Shown in pieces: positions 160 to 7,478 of a stretch of DNA of 7,478 bases. Position 1 is the first letter of the stretch, and each line of letters opens with the position of its first letter. The position numbers and the translations under genes are program-made. Source of the DNA: Clostridia bacterium (GTDB lineage Bacteria; Bacillota; Clostridia; Christensenellales; CAG-314); the NCBI GenBank assembly GCA_017452035.1, contig JAFTNE010000242.1, forward strand, positions 1-7,478. The letters run 5' to 3'. The notes beneath the pieces are model-generated. The model was given only the letters and a program-made list of their open reading frames with translations, was not told the DNA's origin and searched no databases.

Positions 160-1218
160 TTAATCATAAATCTCTTTTGCTCTAAAATACCGAATATTAT
201 TTCCTTTGACCTCTCGTACAATAGCGCCTTCTGCAACCAATTTACGCAGAGCTCCTTCAATTGAACTTATACTTAGAGAAGGGCATAGCTCTCTAATATC
301 TTGTTTCGAGAATCTGCCAATCTTAGTCATAATAGCTCTTCGTACTGTTTCAACTGCGGATAACTTTTCTTCCACCAATGCAAATCTATCTTCAAAGTCC
401 TTGTAGGCAGAAAGTATTGTTCCAAGCAGATACTTAATAAATGGAACAACATCAGCTTGTCCATCGTGCCAACCTATTTGCGACTGATTCAATGCATCAT
501 AGTATAAATCTTTGTTTTTAGCTATCTTTGCTTCAAGAGATATATACTTGCCAACGTGAAATCCGCTTTGGTAAAGCAGTAGCGTAGTAAGCAATCTGCT
601 CATTCTGCCATTTCCATCATTAAATGGATGAATGCACAAGAAGTCGTGGATAAATACGGGTATTGCAATCAATGGTTCAAGTTCGTTATTGCCAATTACG
701 CGATTAAACTCGTTGCAAATGCTTTCTAATGCAGATGGTGTTTCAAATGGACTAAGCGGAGTGAAAAGTATTCTCGTAGTGCCATTTGGATAAGTTGCAC
801 TAATGTAGTTTTGCACAGATTTAGTTCTGCCTGCAGCAGGATTATTCATGTGACCGTACAACATCTTGTGCAGTTGCAGAATGTAGTTTGGTGTGATAGA
901 GATAACATCAAAGTTCTCGTGGATAATATTTAGCACATCACGGTAACCGGCAATTTCTTGTTCATCCCTATTTCTTGGAGTAGTCTTGTCCTCCATAATT
1001 TGTTTGATTCTAGTGTTCGTTGTTACAATACCTTCAATAGCATTGGAACTCTCAGTACTTTGTACCTTTGCAATTTCCACCAACTTTTCCAGCTTTTCGG
1101 GACGTTGTTTTAGATACAGTTCTTGCTTGCCCGCTTCTTTATATATAGCTGCAATTAGACCGAGAACTTCAGAATCCCATTTTTGTTCATTAATTTTTGT
1201 GTAGCTAAATGTTCTCAT
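160..1218 (-). CDS. Fic family protein (probable AMP transferase, class II) with C-terminal winged helix
   Basis: This 352-residue protein carries the full Fic core HPFNDGNGRMSR at residues 197-208: His197 as the catalytic base, Asp201 for metal binding, and the GNGR phosphate-binding loop. Such proteins usually transfer AMP from ATP to a hydroxyl side chain of a target protein in the cytoplasm. An N-terminal inhibitory motif S58-x-x-x-E62-G63 fits class II Fic proteins, in which the glutamate blocks ATP binding until released. The target-docking flap region (about 130-160) is typical. Residues about 285-350 look like a winged helix-turn-helix, common in this class. The start follows a GAGG ribosome-binding site seven bases upstream. 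The gene has its own promoter, overlapped by an inverted repeat that could be an operator for the protein itself (inference). It lies 333 bp downstream of the TIR gene. The target protein is unknown. Confidence 0.93.
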   Translation of the reverse strand: MRTFSYTKINEQKWDSEVLGLIAAIYKEAGKQELYLKQRPEKLEKLVEIAKVQSTESSNAIEGIVTTNTRIKQIMEDKTTPRNRDEQEIAGYRDVLNIIHENFDVISITPNYILQLHKMLYGHMNNPAAGRTKSVQNYISATYPNGTTRILFTPLSPFETPSALESICNEFNRVIGNNELEPLIAIPVFIHDFLCIHPFNDGNGRMSRLLTTLLLYQSGFHVGKYISLEAKIAKNKDLYYDALNQSQIGWHDGQADVVPFIKYLLGTILSAYKDFEDRFALVEEKLSAVETVRRAIMTKIGRFSKQDIRELCPSLSISSIEGALRKLVAEGAIVREVKGNNIRYFRAKEIYD

Positions 1219-1386: not shown

Positions 1387-1420
1387 CTCAAACACTTAGG
1401 AGTTTTTAGAAGTGTTTGAG
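1387..1420. other. Perfect 11-bp stem-loop in the TIR-fic spacer
   Basis: CTCAAACACTT (1387-1397) and AAGTGTTTGAG (1410-1420) are exact reverse complements around a 12-nt loop. No T run follows on either strand, so it is not a standard intrinsic terminator. It could be an RNA structure in the TIR messenger trailer or a protein-binding palindrome. Confidence 0.5.
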
Positions 1421-1452
1421 TCTATCTTCAAATGGGGAAGCTTGCAAGATAA

Positions 1453-1485
1453 GCGTAAAATCTACTGCAAAGATAGGTTTTACGC
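1453..1485. other. Second stem-loop in the TIR-fic spacer
   Basis: GCGTAAAA (1453-1460) and TTTTACGC (1478-1485) are exact reverse complements, with a short inner TCT/AGA extension. The right arm is flanked by two direct copies of GATAGGTT (1472-1479 and 1488-1495). No T tract follows on either strand. With the 1387-1420 hairpin it makes up most of the recognisable structure in the gene-free stretch 1326-1551. Confidence 0.45.
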
Positions 1486-1551
1486 CTGATAGGTTGTTTG
1501 TATGCAAATTTTATAGTGTTTTGTAAGGTAGGCTGTATAAGGGGTGGGTGC

Positions 1552-2340
1552 TCATTTTATGGGAATACTTTCAAATAATCCTTTTTCTGCATTTTTTAAG
1601 ATATAGATTGTAATGTTTTTTAATGCATGGAGGTTCTGTTTGGCTACTACTTCAAACACAAAAGGAAATCCTGGTTGCAAAGTTCTTTGTATACGTGCAG
1701 TGTAAGCATTTAACACAAGTCCTTTCTCTGTCGTTATCTTAACACGATTTGTTAGTGCCAATCCTTCGCTTATTGTAAAGCAAGCAGAAAATTCATCAAA
1801 AGAATTTTGGCAGGCAAACGCAAAAGTAGGGCTGTTTTCTGAGTATGCGATTGCTTTGATGGTTATTTTTGCCTTTTTGCTATCAATTATTTCATAAGTA
1901 GCCTCAAGATTCTCTATGTTATCTAAAGGTTTGTAACAATTCTCTGACCTAATAATACATCTCATTTTTTCGACAGTTGAATCTAAACCTTCACCATATA
2001 AATCTATGTAAAGCTTGTCCAATAAAATTGCGGGTATTGAACAGTCATCAATTCTAATGGCTACAAACTTTAAGTCCTTATTGATAGACTTGTTTAATGC
2101 AGTTTGCCATTCGAGAGCAACCATTTTACTTTCTAAGCTGTTATTAGAAACGAAGAAAAAGAATGTTGTAAATGCGTCCAATCCTTCATTCATTTTTCCG
2201 ATAATGCTATCACCAGGTTGAATAGACCATGCGTCATAAAAGATGTTGTTTTTCCCAAATTCAAGGACAAGTCTACGGGTAACAGTATCAATTAGACGTT
2301 GATCTTTGTGGTTATAACTTATAAAGATTTTCTCTGTCAT
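1552..2340 (-). CDS. TIR-domain protein with C-terminal beta-rich region
   Basis: This 262-residue protein begins with a bacterial TIR domain (about 1-130). It opens with KIFISYNHKD (box 1 type), followed by FYDAWSIQPGDSI (residues 34-46), KMNEGLD (49-55), a hydrophobic strand and VSNNS, then an ALEW segment with Glu77. TIR domains of this kind often cleave NAD+ or make cyclic ADP-ribose-type signals in anti-phage defence. Glu52 is a candidate active-site residue, but I cannot assign it firmly without an alignment. Residues about 145-262 are predicted beta-rich and match no family I recognise; they may be a sensor or partner-binding domain. There is no transmembrane segment or signal peptide. 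The start is fixed by AGGAG six bases upstream of the ATG. The gene starts 18 bp after the EEP stop codon, so the two are almost certainly co-transcribed. The stop is TGA. Confidence 0.9.
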   Translation of the reverse strand: MTEKIFISYNHKDQRLIDTVTRRLVLEFGKNNIFYDAWSIQPGDSIIGKMNEGLDAFTTFFFFVSNNSLESKMVALEWQTALNKSINKDLKFVAIRIDDCSIPAILLDKLYIDLYGEGLDSTVEKMRCIIRSENCYKPLDNIENLEATYEIIDSKKAKITIKAIAYSENSPTFAFACQNSFDEFSACFTISEGLALTNRVKITTEKGLVLNAYTARIQRTLQPGFPFVFEVVAKQNLHALKNITIYILKNAEKGLFESIPIK

Positions 2341-2358
2341 TTCAAACTCCTATAAATA

Positions 2359-3138
2359 TTAAATTATAAACTCGGATATAATAGCAGCATGATCACTGCC
2401 GGCTTTTACAGCTTCATCGTACAAGTACTCGCAGCGTGTTATTTCAAAATTGTTGTTTGAAAACAAGAAATCATATCTAACAGCACCCTTTCGTTTCACA
2501 TTATGCGAAATAGTGACGGGCTTTCCCTCTTCACAATCTGCAATATTTTTGTGCTTCACAAATGCATCGCACAATCCTTTTGCTTTGACCTCGTGGAAAA
2601 ATGTTTGTGCACCTTTTCCGTTGTCAAAGAACACCATTTTATCAATGTCATAGGAATCCATTTGCGGTTCGTTAGCGTCAATTCCAATAATATCGGGGGA
2701 ATATGTGTCTATAAACTCGGCAAACGAATCGTATTGAACTGATTTTGCTTTGTAATAACTACAACCTGTAATAGAGTGAAGTGCTAAAACTTTCAGTTCT
2801 TTGCCTTCAACATTTATGATTGCGTATAATGTTCTGTCGGGAAAAACATTTCGTTCTATAACGCCCGATTTTTTGACCGATATATTTTTGCTTAATATCA
2901 TCATAACACCCAATTTTCTGGCGTCAGAGTCGAATTTGATTGGTGTGCGATAATCCAATGAGTAAAGAATGGTACTGTCTTGGTATTTGGATCTTATGTG
3001 CTCACATACGTGAGGCTTGACCTCTTGCAGTAAGACACAATAGTTGTCGTGTAAAAGAGAAAACAAGAAATCGAGTTTACTTTCGTGATTTCCCATATAA
3101 CTGATATTCCAATTTACCACTTGAATTTTATTATCCAT
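2359..3138 (-). CDS. Endonuclease/exonuclease/phosphatase (EEP) family protein
   Basis: This 259-residue protein has the ordered EEP (DNase I/exonuclease III-like) signature: VVNWNIS with Asn11, LLQEV with the metal-binding Glu39, LALHS with His121, GIDANE with Asp154 and Asn156, RYDFLF with Asp223, and GSDHAAI with Asp249-His250. All expected metal and catalytic positions are present, so it is probably active. The family cuts phosphodiester or phosphomonoester bonds in substrates ranging from DNA and RNA to inositol phosphates and sphingomyelin; the substrate here cannot be read from sequence. There is no signal peptide, which suggests a cytoplasmic role. The ATG at 3136-3138 has GAGGTG six bases upstream. 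It is the first gene of a two-gene operon with the TIR gene, which suggests a nuclease or effector job in a TIR-based defence module (inference). Confidence 0.9.
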   Translation of the reverse strand: MDNKIQVVNWNISYMGNHESKLDFLFSLLHDNYCVLLQEVKPHVCEHIRSKYQDSTILYSLDYRTPIKFDSDARKLGVMMILSKNISVKKSGVIERNVFPDRTLYAIINVEGKELKVLALHSITGCSYYKAKSVQYDSFAEFIDTYSPDIIGIDANEPQMDSYDIDKMVFFDNGKGAQTFFHEVKAKGLCDAFVKHKNIADCEEGKPVTISHNVKRKGAVRYDFLFSNNNFEITRCEYLYDEAVKAGSDHAAIISEFII

Positions 3139-3175: not shown

Positions 3176-3204
3176 ATTATACCATAAAACTGTGAATAAA
3201 TCAA
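3176..3204 (-). promoter_or_regulatory. Sigma-A promoter of the EEP-TIR operon
   Basis: -35 TTGATT (3199-3204), a 17-bp spacer ending in TGG, and a perfect -10 TATAAT (3176-3181), with an extended -10 element. The predicted start near 3169 gives a leader of about 30 nt with GAGGTG before the ATG at 3138. Confidence 0.75.
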
Positions 3205-3245
3205 TCGGTATCATAAGACACACAAGCCCTAAAAACACAGTTTTA
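3185..3245. repeat. 10-bp inverted repeat around the EEP-TIR promoter
   Basis: TAAAACTGTG (3185-3194) and CACAGTTTTA (3236-3245) are exact reverse complements with 41 bp between them. The left arm lies inside the -35/-10 spacer and the right arm lies upstream of the -35 box. Arm centres are 51 bp apart, near five helical turns. This arrangement could be a pair of half-operators. Confidence 0.45.
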
Positions 3246-3416
3246 GGAAACAGGATAAGCGTAGGGTGCAAGTTTCCGCCACAGATGGAAAATTGTTGAC
3301 CAATTTTTGTCAGAACATGTTTGGTTTAATTCCGCGCGTGTCAATCGAATGAATGTATACATACAGTGAAGTCTTTTTTGCAAAAAGCGGGCTACAAATA
3401 TCTTTATAGCGACTTG
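3246..3416. other. Gene-free stretch between the EEP promoter and the tRNA-like sequence
   Basis: No convincing gene in either direction; the only open frame (minus strand, TTG start) begins inside the tRNA-like sequence and has no ribosome-binding site or recognisable motif. Small AT-rich symmetries are present: AAAATTG-N5-CAATTTT at 3289-3307, the 10-bp palindrome ATGTATACAT near 3353, and a near-palindrome CTTTTTTGCAAAAAG near 3373. None has a clear role. Confidence 0.4.
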
Positions 3417-3488
3417 TGGCACCCGCAATAGGAATCGAACATGTAACTATCCTTTAAGAATAAGGATAAATTACAGCTAAGACGTCCA
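3417..3488 (-). pseudogene. Degenerate tRNA-like sequence
   Basis: On the minus strand, the stretch has tRNA size and order: a TAGCT box, an anticodon-like hairpin (ATCCTT/AAGGAT around ATTCTTA), a spacer AGTT, a T loop TTCGATT, and GCCA at the 3' end. The D region is too short, the T stem has two mismatches and the 5' end does not pair with the acceptor strand TGCGGGT, so it is not a working tRNA. Its last 44 nt line up without gaps with the plus-strand tRNA fragment at 3671-3714 (about 30 of 44 identical). It may be a decayed tRNA, an old attachment-site scar, or a tRNA-mimicking element sequence. Confidence 0.5.
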
Positions 3489-3670: not shown

Positions 3671-3714
3671 CTCCTAAGGGCTAGTTGTGGGTTCGATTCC
3701 CGCAGGGAGTGCCA
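3671..3714 (+). other. 3' fragment of tRNA-Arg(CCT), probable att site
   Basis: The fragment reads as the second half of a tRNA: anticodon loop CTCCTAA (3671-3677, anticodon CCT), 3' anticodon strand GGGCT, a 4-nt variable loop, T stem GTGGG/CCCGC around TTCGATT (3687-3703), acceptor strand AGGGAGT (3704-3710), G73 and CCA. Nothing to its left pairs with the anticodon or acceptor strands, so the 5' half is absent. A terminator follows at once, as after a real tRNA gene. Tyrosine integrases commonly recombine within this half of a tRNA, leaving such a fragment at the distal end of the element. By that logic the element lies to the left and the old chromosome to the right. A simple decayed tRNA is the alternative. 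Confidence 0.7.
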
Positions 3715-4022: not shown

Positions 4023-4774
4023 TTACTTTGTAATTATTTCTGCACGTTCATACTCGCAGGTTTGTGCGTCAATTGTCAACTCCAATCCAACTGCACTTTC
4101 CGGTGGGTAAATAGTTGAAGACATCACTTTGCCGTCCTCAAAAATTTCCACAGAAAATTTGTCCATAACGATGGTCAAGGTTACGTCCCTTTTGTTGGAG
4201 AAGGGCATACGGCGAATTCCATTAAGTGAGTCGGTGTCCCTTTCTTCGCCAACGATTTGCTCGCCTGACTTGGAACGGAAACACCCCCCCCCTGGCCATC
4301 AATTAGCCCCAACGTGGTGGCATTTACACCGTCACAACGCATTTTTAGATGGAAGTTTGTAACGCCAGTCGCTTTGATGGTTATAACGCCTGTCAAAACA
4401 TTATCTGCAAGTTTGTTGGCTACAGTTGCTTTGTGTACTGGTGCGCAATTTACAATAGGATCTTGGCAAAGTGCGCCATTTTGGATAAAAACTCTTCTTG
4501 GCGCTGTAAGCATGCCAGCAAAGCCGTATTTGGCAGAAGGTACGTTTCTATCCCACATGTTGAGTCAACCAATTAGCGTTGTTTTGTTAGCAAATGTTTG
4601 TGGCGCGTACATATCAAAGCCGTAGTCAACAATGTTGCGACACTCTTCCACAAACAGGCCTGTTGCGTAGTCAATAGTTTCGCCTGTGTATTGGTAGCAG
4701 TATATGTTATAAAATTTCAAGCCCTTTTTTGGAAATGTTTCCAAAATTGAAAAAATAGTTTTGGTTTTTCTCAT
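4023..4774 (-). pseudogene. C-terminal remnant of a GH32 beta-fructosidase (sucrose/fructan hydrolase)
   Basis: The conserved second half of glycoside hydrolase family 32 is recognisable in order. DYGFDMYAPQTF and TLIG come first, then NMWDRNVP and GFAGMLTAPRRV (end of the five-blade propeller), an ALCQDP segment, and finally DKFSVEIFEDGK with STIYPP from the C-terminal beta-sandwich. Intact members hydrolyse sucrose, inulin or levan. Here the gene is dead. The N-terminal half, with the WMNDPNG nucleophile, RDP and EC acid/base motifs, is missing. A TGA stop (4565-4567) sits where Trp is expected in LIGWLNMW. The frame changes at or near a run of nine G on the coding strand (4284-4292), where one G too few or two too many would account for the shift. 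No ribosome-binding site precedes the first ATG at 4774. The upstream end abuts the LRR gene. Confidence 0.85.
4284..4292 (-). repeat. Nine-base homopolymer run at the GH32 frame change
   Basis: Nine consecutive C on the plus strand (G on the coding strand) stand out in this AT-rich window. The reading frame before the run (DGQGGG) and the frame after it (from FRSKSGEQIV onward to the C-terminal domain) differ, so slippage here is the simplest cause. A sequencing length error is equally possible. Confidence 0.6.
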
Positions 4775-4840: not shown

Positions 4841-6712
4841 TCAATATGAAGAATGATGATTCCACGAAACATCACAATTAGAGTAGTTCCAATCTTTGTC
4901 CCATCCGTTTGGTTTGGACTTTGCTTGGCAATAAATTTTGAGATTACTACATTTGTAAAATGCTTTGTAACCAATGTACGTAACTGTATCGGGTATATAT
5001 ACCGATTGCAGTTTGTAACACCCAGCAAAGGCTTGCTCTCCAATGCTTGTTAACGAAGGGGAAAATCTTACTTCGGTAATTGTTTTACATCCATCAAAAG
5101 CATTGGCACCAATGGTTGTAACGGAGTTGGGAATTTGAACGTTGGAAAGTGATTCGCAATTGTAAAACATACCATCGGGAATGGCCGATATACTTTCGGG
5201 AAGTTCTACACTACCTAGTGAAGAGCAGTATGTAAAGACGTAGTCGCCCAGCGTGGTTACCGAGATAGGAATTGTTACACTTGTAAGTGCTTTGCAATGA
5301 CTAAAAGCAAAACTTCCTATGCTTGTGACGGAACTAGGAATATTTACACTTTCAAGCAGTTCGCATTCACTAAATACATTGCTATAAATAATTTTGGTTT
5401 GGGTTGAAATGTCAAAGCTAACAATTTGCTTGTTTTTTACACCCATCAAAACAAGGTATTGGTTTTGTTCATTGCCCAGGTAGTAGGCGTTGTCGTCTTC
5501 GTTGCAAACAAGAGCATTACAGTCACCAAATGCATTGGAGCCTACATATTTGATATTGTCGCTCAAAACAACCTTTGCGAGAGCGCTGCAACCAGAAAAG
5601 GCATTTTTGCCGATTTCAGTAACAGTATCCAATGATATGTTTGTGATGTTAGAGCAGTAGAAAAATGCTTTATCGCCAATTTTTGTTACCGAAGCAGGAA
5701 TTTGCACACCGGAAAGTGCCGAACATCCATCAAAAGTACCCGATTCAATTACAGTAAGCTTGTTGTTTTCGCCAAAACTTACACTTTTTAGTGATGTACA
5801 GTCTTTGAAAGTCTCTTTGCCAATTGTGGCTACAAAATTGCCTATTGTTACGCTTTCCAAAGTTGTTAGTCCTGCAAATGCGCCCTCGTCAATGGCTGTA
5901 ATTGAATTGCCTATAACTACATTTTTGAGGGAGGGGTGTTGAGAAAAATCTATCCAGTTCAAGTTTGTCAGCGAATTGCCGATGACAATTTCTGCAAGGG
6001 ACTCACATCCCTCCAAAATGCCAGAATCAATGTTTGTTACACTATCGGGGATGGTAATACTTGTAAGGGATGAGCAATAGGAAAATGCACGCAAGCCAAT
6101 GCTAATAATACCATTGGGCAGGGTAATGCTTTTAAGCGCTTTACTATTGGAAAATGCATAATTGGGGATAACTGTGATATTTTGAGACAAAACAATGCTG
6201 GTAAGGTGCTCACTTTTGCTAAAAGCTCCCTCACCAAGAGTTGTTACAGTATTGGGGAGGGTAAAAGAAGTATCCTTTTTGCCAGAAGCATAACGAACCA
6301 GCACACTGCCATCCTTTGTGTAAAGGCTTCCATCCACTGTTTTGTAGTGTGCGTTGTTTTTGTCTACGTCAATGGCTGTATGCGCTTCGCTAATAGCACC
6401 GTCAGCAATATATTTAACAGATGCAGGGATAGTAATTTTTTCAATTTTGGAAGAAAAAATACGATTAATTGCTGTGATGGGCAAACCTTCGTACTCACTG
6501 GGAATTATCAAGTGGGTATAGGTGGGATTATCTATTAAATACTCAACAGAATAGCCGTCCTTGGCTTCGTTGAGGGTATACTGTAGGTGTTCTTTGGACT
6601 TGTTATCTCCCTCGTTGCCAAAGCCATCTGGCAATAAAAAACATGCCGAAAGGGCGCAAATTAGCACTAACATCAAAGTTACTAACAAAACCTGTTTAAT
6701 TACTTTTTTCAT
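4841..6712 (-). CDS. BspA-type leucine-rich-repeat surface lipoprotein
   Basis: This 623-residue protein has a lipoprotein signal peptide: MKK, a hydrophobic core (residues 8-20) and lipobox L21-S-A-C24, so it should be lipid-anchored on the outer face of the membrane. From about residue 90 to 590 it is built of 23-residue LRR_5 (TpLRR/BspA) repeats of the type IPxSVTxIGxxAFxxCxxL. Block 1 (about 90-400) contains an early DGSLYTKDGS segment (127-136) typical of the family. A non-repeat insert (about 403-435, AYYLGNEQNQYLVL) follows, then block 2 (about 440-590) and a Trp-rich end (GWDKDWN, SWNHH). There is no catalytic domain and no C-terminal anchor. Such proteins are usually linked to adhesion or ligand binding; the partner is unknown. 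The ATG is preceded by GTGAGG five bases upstream, and a clear promoter lies at 6810-6838. The stop is TGA. Confidence 0.93.
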   Translation of the reverse strand: MKKVIKQVLLVTLMLVLICALSACFLLPDGFGNEGDNKSKEHLQYTLNEAKDGYSVEYLIDNPTYTHLIIPSEYEGLPITAINRIFSSKIEKITIPASVKYIADGAISEAHTAIDVDKNNAHYKTVDGSLYTKDGSVLVRYASGKKDTSFTLPNTVTTLGEGAFSKSEHLTSIVLSQNITVIPNYAFSNSKALKSITLPNGIISIGLRAFSYCSSLTSITIPDSVTNIDSGILEGCESLAEIVIGNSLTNLNWIDFSQHPSLKNVVIGNSITAIDEGAFAGLTTLESVTIGNFVATIGKETFKDCTSLKSVSFGENNKLTVIESGTFDGCSALSGVQIPASVTKIGDKAFFYCSNITNISLDTVTEIGKNAFSGCSALAKVVLSDNIKYVGSNAFGDCNALVCNEDDNAYYLGNEQNQYLVLMGVKNKQIVSFDISTQTKIIYSNVFSECELLESVNIPSSVTSIGSFAFSHCKALTSVTIPISVTTLGDYVFTYCSSLGSVELPESISAIPDGMFYNCESLSNVQIPNSVTTIGANAFDGCKTITEVRFSPSLTSIGEQAFAGCYKLQSVYIPDTVTYIGYKAFYKCSNLKIYCQAKSKPNGWDKDWNYSNCDVSWNHHSSY

Positions 6713-7445: not shown

Positions 7446-7451
7446 TCCCTT

Positions 7452-7478
7452 AAAGGAGGTGATCCAGCCGCACCTTCC
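7452..7478 (-). rRNA. 3' end of 16S rRNA (runs off right edge)
   Basis: The minus strand reads as the universal 16S 3' terminus: GGCTGGATCACCTCCTTT, including the anti-Shine-Dalgarno CCTCC. Only the last 27 or so bases are in the window and the exact mature 3' end may extend a few bases left. The gene is transcribed leftward into a short trailer and a terminator, with no 23S gene in the remaining 7.4 kb. Confidence 0.95.

Follow-up and report, generated by a model that had tools for sequence, protein, structure and literature searches.

SpbK of Bacillus subtilis is a single-gene TIR NADase whose cleavage of NAD+ leads to abortive infection and which interacts with the phage protein YonE (PMC12847820). 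In Thoeris, two adjacent genes encode the TIR protein ThsB and the effector ThsA, of SIR2-SLOG or macro-domain type (PMC12578639, PMC11204291). At the genomic level, tRNA hotspots of Escherichia coli carry defence genes that vary between strains, the mobility of some of these islands being described as unclear (PMC10121019), and CALINs are cassette arrays lacking an integron integrase (PMC11389934).

The DNA analysed here (7,478 nucleotides, the window) carries a TIR gene directly behind a gene of the EEP (endonuclease/exonuclease/phosphatase) superfamily. SpbK and the window TIR protein are alike in joining a TIR enzyme domain to another domain; the window protein differs in its C-terminal beta-sandwich, in having no known target and in the position of its gene behind EEP (PMC12847820). 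With Thoeris it shares two adjacent genes, one of them TIR, whereas the partner is an EEP phosphodiesterase instead of one of those effector types (PMC12578639, PMC11204291). The window pair also differs in falling under the ThsB HMM cut-off and in not being conserved in the genomes searched. No ThsA-type effector lies next to the TIR gene within the window, its neighbours being EEP and Fic. The features are the following.

160..1218, minus strand: Fic-family protein, next beyond the end site; same order in locus L029
1387..1420, minus strand: end site CTCAAACACTT-12-AAGTGTTTGAG containing AACACTTnTnAAAACTCCTAAG; att-like
1391..1547, minus strand: tail, the conserved right frame of the block
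1453..1485, minus strand: tail hairpin, of the type GCGTAAAAnCT..AGnTTTTACGC
1552..2340, minus strand: TIR protein, 262 aa, with TIR domain (about 1-130, Glu77) and C-terminal beta-sandwich (about 140-262)
2341..2358, minus strand: 18-bp spacer from EEP stop to TIR start, with ribosome-binding site; inside the segment missing from locus L003
2359..3138, minus strand: EEP-fold protein, 259 aa, predicted metal-dependent phosphodiesterase/nuclease
3176..3204, minus strand: promoter-like site with extended -10, TTGATT-17-TATAAT, ahead of EEP
3228..3283, minus strand: part of frame element X, the left frame of the block
3414..3459, minus strand: degenerate remnant of a tRNA-Arg 3' half, upstream of EEP
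3671..3714, plus strand: second fragment of a tRNA-Arg(CCT) 3' half, in opposite orientation

An earlier note on this DNA had described a two-gene EEP and TIR arrangement behind one strong promoter. The arrangement was confirmed in place and content: both genes are transcribed in the same direction, 18 bp apart, and each has a ribosome-binding site, as judged by eye. Promoter-like sites across the window are no more numerous than expected by chance, but the one before EEP is kept in L003 and partly in L002.

The predicted structure of the EEP protein shows the four-layered alpha/beta fold of the superfamily, and the complete motif set announced by the earlier note (N, E, H, DxN, D, DH) was indeed found. 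Residues N11, E39, H121, D154, N156, D223, D249 and H250, the predicted catalytic ones, are conserved in 47-48 of 48 sequences. The best structural matches are the repair enzymes TDP2, APE1 and ExoIII, from which the window protein differs by its low identity (14-19%) and by belonging to a distinct sequence family, marked by the signature GIDANEP and under the Pfam threshold. The whole chain aligns with the catalytic fold, and no added signal-binding domain is present. The gene is rare, with full matches in 2 of 201 relatives and 1 of 391 genomes of the class, the window genome counted. A match in G128 (E 4.3e-4) was rejected as chance, since it falls within an ORF of 290 aa for which phmmer, queried with the window EEP, gives no match. 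One relative, P0119, carries an ASCH domain fused at its C-terminus, which hints that RNA may be the target of some EEP members.

The claim of a full TIR domain was likewise borne out, the model showing an enzymatic-type TIR fold, close to NAD-cleaving TIRs, in which the conserved glutamate is present. The key glutamate had been placed at Glu52; the alignment moves it to Glu77, which is invariant in 33 of 33 sequences versus 28 of 33 for Glu52. A second, C-terminal domain, absent from the earlier description, is predicted as a beta-sandwich and is variable (mean pairwise identity 31%, versus 73% for the conserved TIR domain). It gave only weak Foldseek matches (CBM, cohesin, integrin and diphtheria-toxin chains), and a search with this domain returned five proteins, each with a TIR domain. 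The ThsB_TIR HMM (PF08937) scored the protein at 16.3 bits, under the 21.2 cut-off, and PADLOC ThsB reached only E 0.0025. A phage or plasmid origin of the pair was considered and rejected: viral_contigs and phages held relatives of neither protein, and plasmids held no EEP relatives and only partial TIR matches (27-32% identity, 6 records).

To judge conservation, EEP loci were located by two peptide patterns, a scan in which some loci will be missed, and nine further genomic loci were found besides the window. None of the nine has a TIR relative within 5.5 kb, the view being shortened upstream by contig ends or stored flank in L007 and L010. The window TIR, a query that recovers the window genome, gave no match in the nine genomes at E 1e-15, although these are MAGs in which a missing gene can be a gap. 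In larger sets the same query found the window genome only: 1 of 391 genomes of the class and 1 of 398 of the phylum at E 1e-40, and 1 of 25 of the genus at E 1e-15. It found nothing in the family of G576 (0/200, E 1e-40) or among relatives of G574 (0/65, E 1e-10); an empty search of this kind is informative only with a matching genome in the set, and the window genome is that control in the class, phylum and genus sets. The EEP gene thus lives, as far as genome sequences tell, without the window TIR.

Judged from the EEP loci, the co-occurrence that the earlier note had named as its check failed among the genomes searched. A conserved EEP-TIR two-gene system is rejected for these genomes, given 0 of 9 EEP loci, 0 of 9 genomes and a block in L003 that has EEP alone, without TIR. 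The reading of the pair as a defence module therefore survives in part: both proteins resemble enzyme types known from phage defence and the block is a cargo-swapping one beside tRNA remnants, but a conserved two-gene system is not supported in these genomes. For EEP as an effector or processor of the TIR product, which had also been proposed, adjacency is the sole argument left.

The neighbours of EEP change, since its start overlaps different upstream genes by 4 bases in L004 (a DUF6994 gene, 9252-10004, the apparent operon partner there) and in L005 (a gene of the 23S-rRNA-intervening-sequence type, 9528-10007). EEP lies near restriction-modification genes in L007 and near Cas9 in L008, observations not set against a background rate of defence genes, and among genes that look ordinary or housekeeping by eye in L006, L009 and L010. 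In tRNA-linked or integrase-linked places it is found in L003, L002 and L005. In L002 it is near a tRNA-Ser whose end recurs as a 21-base direct repeat (11253-11273 and 11438-11458, 185 bases apart), a layout in which a second tRNA type may serve as site.

Locus L003 comes from a Clostridia MAG of roe deer, and its EEP is 85% identical to that of the window. Its alignment with the window covers leader, promoter and EEP as well as a tail of about 160 bases (blastn E 2.8e-22 for this last part). In both sequences the start of the tail is at most 7 bases away from a stop codon, that of EEP in L003 and that of TIR in the window; what chiefly sets the two apart in the stretch from EEP to tail is the TIR gene with its 18-bp spacer. 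The L003 EEP gene stands between a complete tRNA-Arg(CCT) (9685-9759) and a second copy of a 25-base tRNA stretch (9716 and 10940). L003 is the one case of EEP alone among EEP-bearing blocks with X and tail frames. A gain of TIR in the window appears likely; with two sequences compared, loss in L003 is equally possible.

The tail is present in L003 and, with other cargo, in L027, L028, L029, L030, L031 and L070 (the last without end site). It ends in AACACTTnTnAAAACTCCTAAG; its last bases, CTCCTAAG, correspond to the anticodon-loop part of tRNA-Arg(CCT). The outer stem of the tail hairpin is invariant in 8 copies and compensatory two-sided changes amount to 0 of 16 pairs, so covariation does not prove the hairpin. 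When the end-site motif was searched with up to 2 mismatches, it was found in 1 of 25 genomes of the window genus, the window itself, with no match for the control pattern. Among relatives of the L003 genome it was found in 7 of 145, and the reversed control in 5 of 145 (9 places, 5 of them in one genome). With a reversed control nearly as frequent, the motif count alone is not evidence and the tail alignment carries the claim. A DNA search with the whole tail gave 6 of 145 genomes at E 1e-31 or better (G574, G1174 twice, G1176, G1188, G1198, G1244), and 29 further genomes of the 145 match the tRNA core or a short piece only. Of the seven motif matches, loci L026 and L032 were dropped, as each has an end-site match with 2 mismatches, yet neither hairpin nor tRNA core.

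The left frame, element X, spans about 90-130 bp in L003, L027, L029, L030, L031 and L070, where it lies before or between the cargo genes, and is partial in the window (3283-3228); in L028 its position is past the end site and behind a Fic gene. Neither X nor tail is found in L002, L004-L010 or the other fetched sites, and exact tail patterns are absent from viral_contigs.

Between these frames the cargo varies. From tRNA-Arg to tail, L027 carries a 254-aa protein and an HNH protein. L030 has a DUF2971 protein (PADLOC candidate PDC-S31, E 3.3e-44), a lipoprotein-like protein and a 193-aa protein, and L031 has a Fic protein (PADLOC candidate PDC-S04, E 4.5e-100) with a 168-aa protein. The cargo of L029 comprises a serine recombinase, a 455-aa protein, a type II restriction enzyme of GmrSD/HNH type (E 6.9e-83), an EcoRI-like methylase (E 1.5e-84), an HTH protein and a 128-aa protein; that of L070 comprises 207-aa and 89-aa proteins. 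In L028 the contig begins inside the block and the cargo is outside the view. The defence calls at this site and near EEP come from PADLOC on selected proteins (3, 10 and 10), with no background rate for comparison, and some cargo has no known defence link (the lipoprotein-like proteins of L030 and L070, the 168-aa protein of L031).

Direct repeats of the tRNA 3' part are found at both ends, with 44/44 identical bases in L027 and L030, 43/44 in L031 and 25 nt in L003; these four loci, with flanking tRNA direct repeats and island-free sites in relatives, thus have the attributes of tRNA islands. In L003, L027 and L030, but not in L031 or L070, the tRNA follows GT2 and RadC genes (identified by eye). 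Ten further loci were fetched. Six show the order GT2-RadC-tRNA-Arg (phmmer to the L003 genes) with a single core and no X or tail. Of the remaining loci, L067 and L073 have the tRNA but no RadC, L071 has two cores that enclose an unrelated island, and in L070 X and tail are present but a second core is not. Genes of the 23S-rRNA-intervening-sequence type recur, overlapping EEP in L005 and lying close after tRNA-Arg in L067 (6849-7208) and L071 (8882-9247).

No recombinase was found among the scanned cargo of L003, L027, L030, L031 and L070, so one from elsewhere may move these blocks. A serine recombinase is part of the L029 cargo, and in L030 another is encoded about 1.1 kb past the end site. 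An identical stretch of 85 bases occurs in the two contigs of G1174 (L029 9916-10000, L028 1-85), with a tail copy on each side of the Fic gene, which suggests two stacked blocks. With the E. coli hotspots the blocks have in common variable defence genes at tRNA sites and, as for some islands there, unclear mobility; the blocks here differ in going down to 1.2 kb and one gene, in being framed by X and a hairpin tail, and in having no recombinase in the scanned cargo of L003, L027, L030 and L031, L029 having one (PMC10121019). With CALINs the likeness is one of layout only (small genes, a structured recombination-like site downstream, possible mobilisation in trans and stackability, paralleled by the Fic gene that comes after the end site in the window as in L029); the block core differs in being a tRNA-Arg anticodon loop with tRNA direct repeats, not attC (PMC11389934).

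In the window copy the tRNA boundaries are eroded. The remnant at 3459-3414 has 80-82% identity to the tRNA-Arg 3' halves of L027 and L030, and the tRNA-Arg(CCT) fragment on the plus strand (3671-3714) has 86-91% identity and faces away from the island; two tRNA junctions thus adjoin, in opposite directions, inside a stretch of about 300 bases. The end site, an inverted-repeat site of 34 bases (1420-1387), keeps 8 tRNA core bases at 1416-1395, and ARAGORN found no complete tRNA in the window. On the strength of frame homology, we regard the window copy as an eroded or stacked member of the block family. Beyond the tail and end site, the Fic gene is shared with L029 (66% DNA identity over 876 bases); its product matches Pfam Fic (E 2.4e-17) and PADLOC SoFic (E 1.9e-38), a C-terminal HTH remaining below cut-off. 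Repeats of the A+T-rich TAAGGGAATATT type lie ahead of its start.

In its tetranucleotide profile the block leans further towards the L003-type genome than any of 150 host fragments of 2,070 bases, and it is therefore atypical for its host. Its likeness to the L003-type genome is itself incomplete: the difference is +0.08, below that of all sampled fragments of that genome (at least +0.16, scored against a profile that includes them). EEP and TIR stand out less when each is taken by itself (6 of 150 host fragments). The window's right half resembles the host (0.71 vs 0.30, from 7 host stretches), and a wrongly binned contig is for this reason unlikely. That half holds a broken GH32 gene of the sucrose-hydrolase type (4023-4774, in separate ORFs, the C-terminal piece at E 1.6e-7 and the N-terminal at E 1.7e-5) and a 623-aa leucine-rich-repeat protein of BspA type (4841-6712, minus strand) with host-like composition. 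Positions 7448-7478 resemble what we take to be the reverse complement of the 16S rRNA 3' end with its anti-Shine-Dalgarno region, for which Rfam gave no match, and the contig likely breaks at an rRNA operon there.

Taken together, these results lead us to a reading to which we give an even chance: EEP and TIR would be two defence genes stacked in a swappable tRNA-Arg island, the EEP protein being predicted to act alone and the TIR protein to cleave NAD+ upon infection. The small island would target tRNA-Arg(CCT) and move by site-specific recombination at the tRNA core, most copies depending for this on a recombinase provided in trans. X and tail would allow cargo exchange, and TIR was probably captured behind EEP in the window block. 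As the EEP of L003 must act without the window TIR, the enzyme is probably an effector directed at nucleic acid of the invader or the host, with no need of TIR. The variable beta-sandwich probably senses a phage product, which would be followed by TIR assembly, cleavage and depletion of NAD+ and abortive infection in the manner of SpbK, so that one shared promoter would stack two layers of defence. The defence role of the block is itself inferred from its contents.

That the two proteins instead form a Thoeris-type system, in which an ADP-ribose signal made by TIR activates EEP, or EEP hydrolyses the signal or NAD(P) as a brake, appears unlikely to us. The 18-bp spacing, the single promoter-like site and a TIR fold near NAD-cleaving TIRs are what one would expect of such a pair, and the EEP model matches nocturnin with NADPH bound (E 4.2e-10), an EEP enzyme acting on a dinucleotide, but nocturnin is one among many tied matches and ranks below TDP2. 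Moreover, the EEP chain shows no extra domain for signal binding, the ThsB_TIR score remains under its cut-off, and the window TIR is unmatched in the nine other EEP genomes, including that of L003 with the same block.

We also consider it improbable that EEP works in DNA repair or for the island itself, for instance by processing protein-linked or abasic DNA ends, with TIR alone defensive. Its top folds are indeed repair enzymes, and it recurs at tRNA-linked or integrase-linked places; yet its rarity is unlike that of a repair gene, and it is found near restriction-modification genes and Cas9, an association that lacks a background control. Very unlikely, finally, is a chance juxtaposition in a decaying island, the window version being a degraded relic with no present function. 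The tRNA remnants and the broken GH32 gene nearby would fit such decay, but both ORFs are intact, their catalytic residues are conserved, and ribosome-binding sites and a promoter are in place.

Returning to the stacked defence genes, neither TIR NADases nor EEP enzymes are new as such, and defence genes at tRNA hotspots have been described (PMC10121019). Within the literature searched, the EEP-TIR arrangement and the EEP family as a defence candidate are new: no paper joined TIR, the endonuclease/exonuclease/phosphatase phrase and defence terms, in a coverage outside which most subscription papers fall. Nor was a cargo slot framed by X and tail met in this literature, which was searched by words, not by sequence.

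More broadly, and as a tentative proposal, the blocks may be trans-mobilised cassettes, in which the frames of X and hairpin tail with its tRNA-Arg core enable clostridial gut bacteria to take up single defence genes at tRNA-Arg(CCT), to stack them and to exchange them, in most cases with no recombinase inside the cassette; in the window this would have built a two-enzyme immune unit from an EEP nuclease and a TIR NADase with a fast-changing sensor domain. If this is true, the gain or loss of TIR would be a single step in an otherwise matching block, and the uncharacterised EEP family would be marked as a candidate anti-phage nuclease in its own right. Many animal-gut Clostridia are known from metagenomes only, and X with the hairpin tail by tRNA-Arg would then provide a DNA signature by which defence candidates in these bacteria could be listed.
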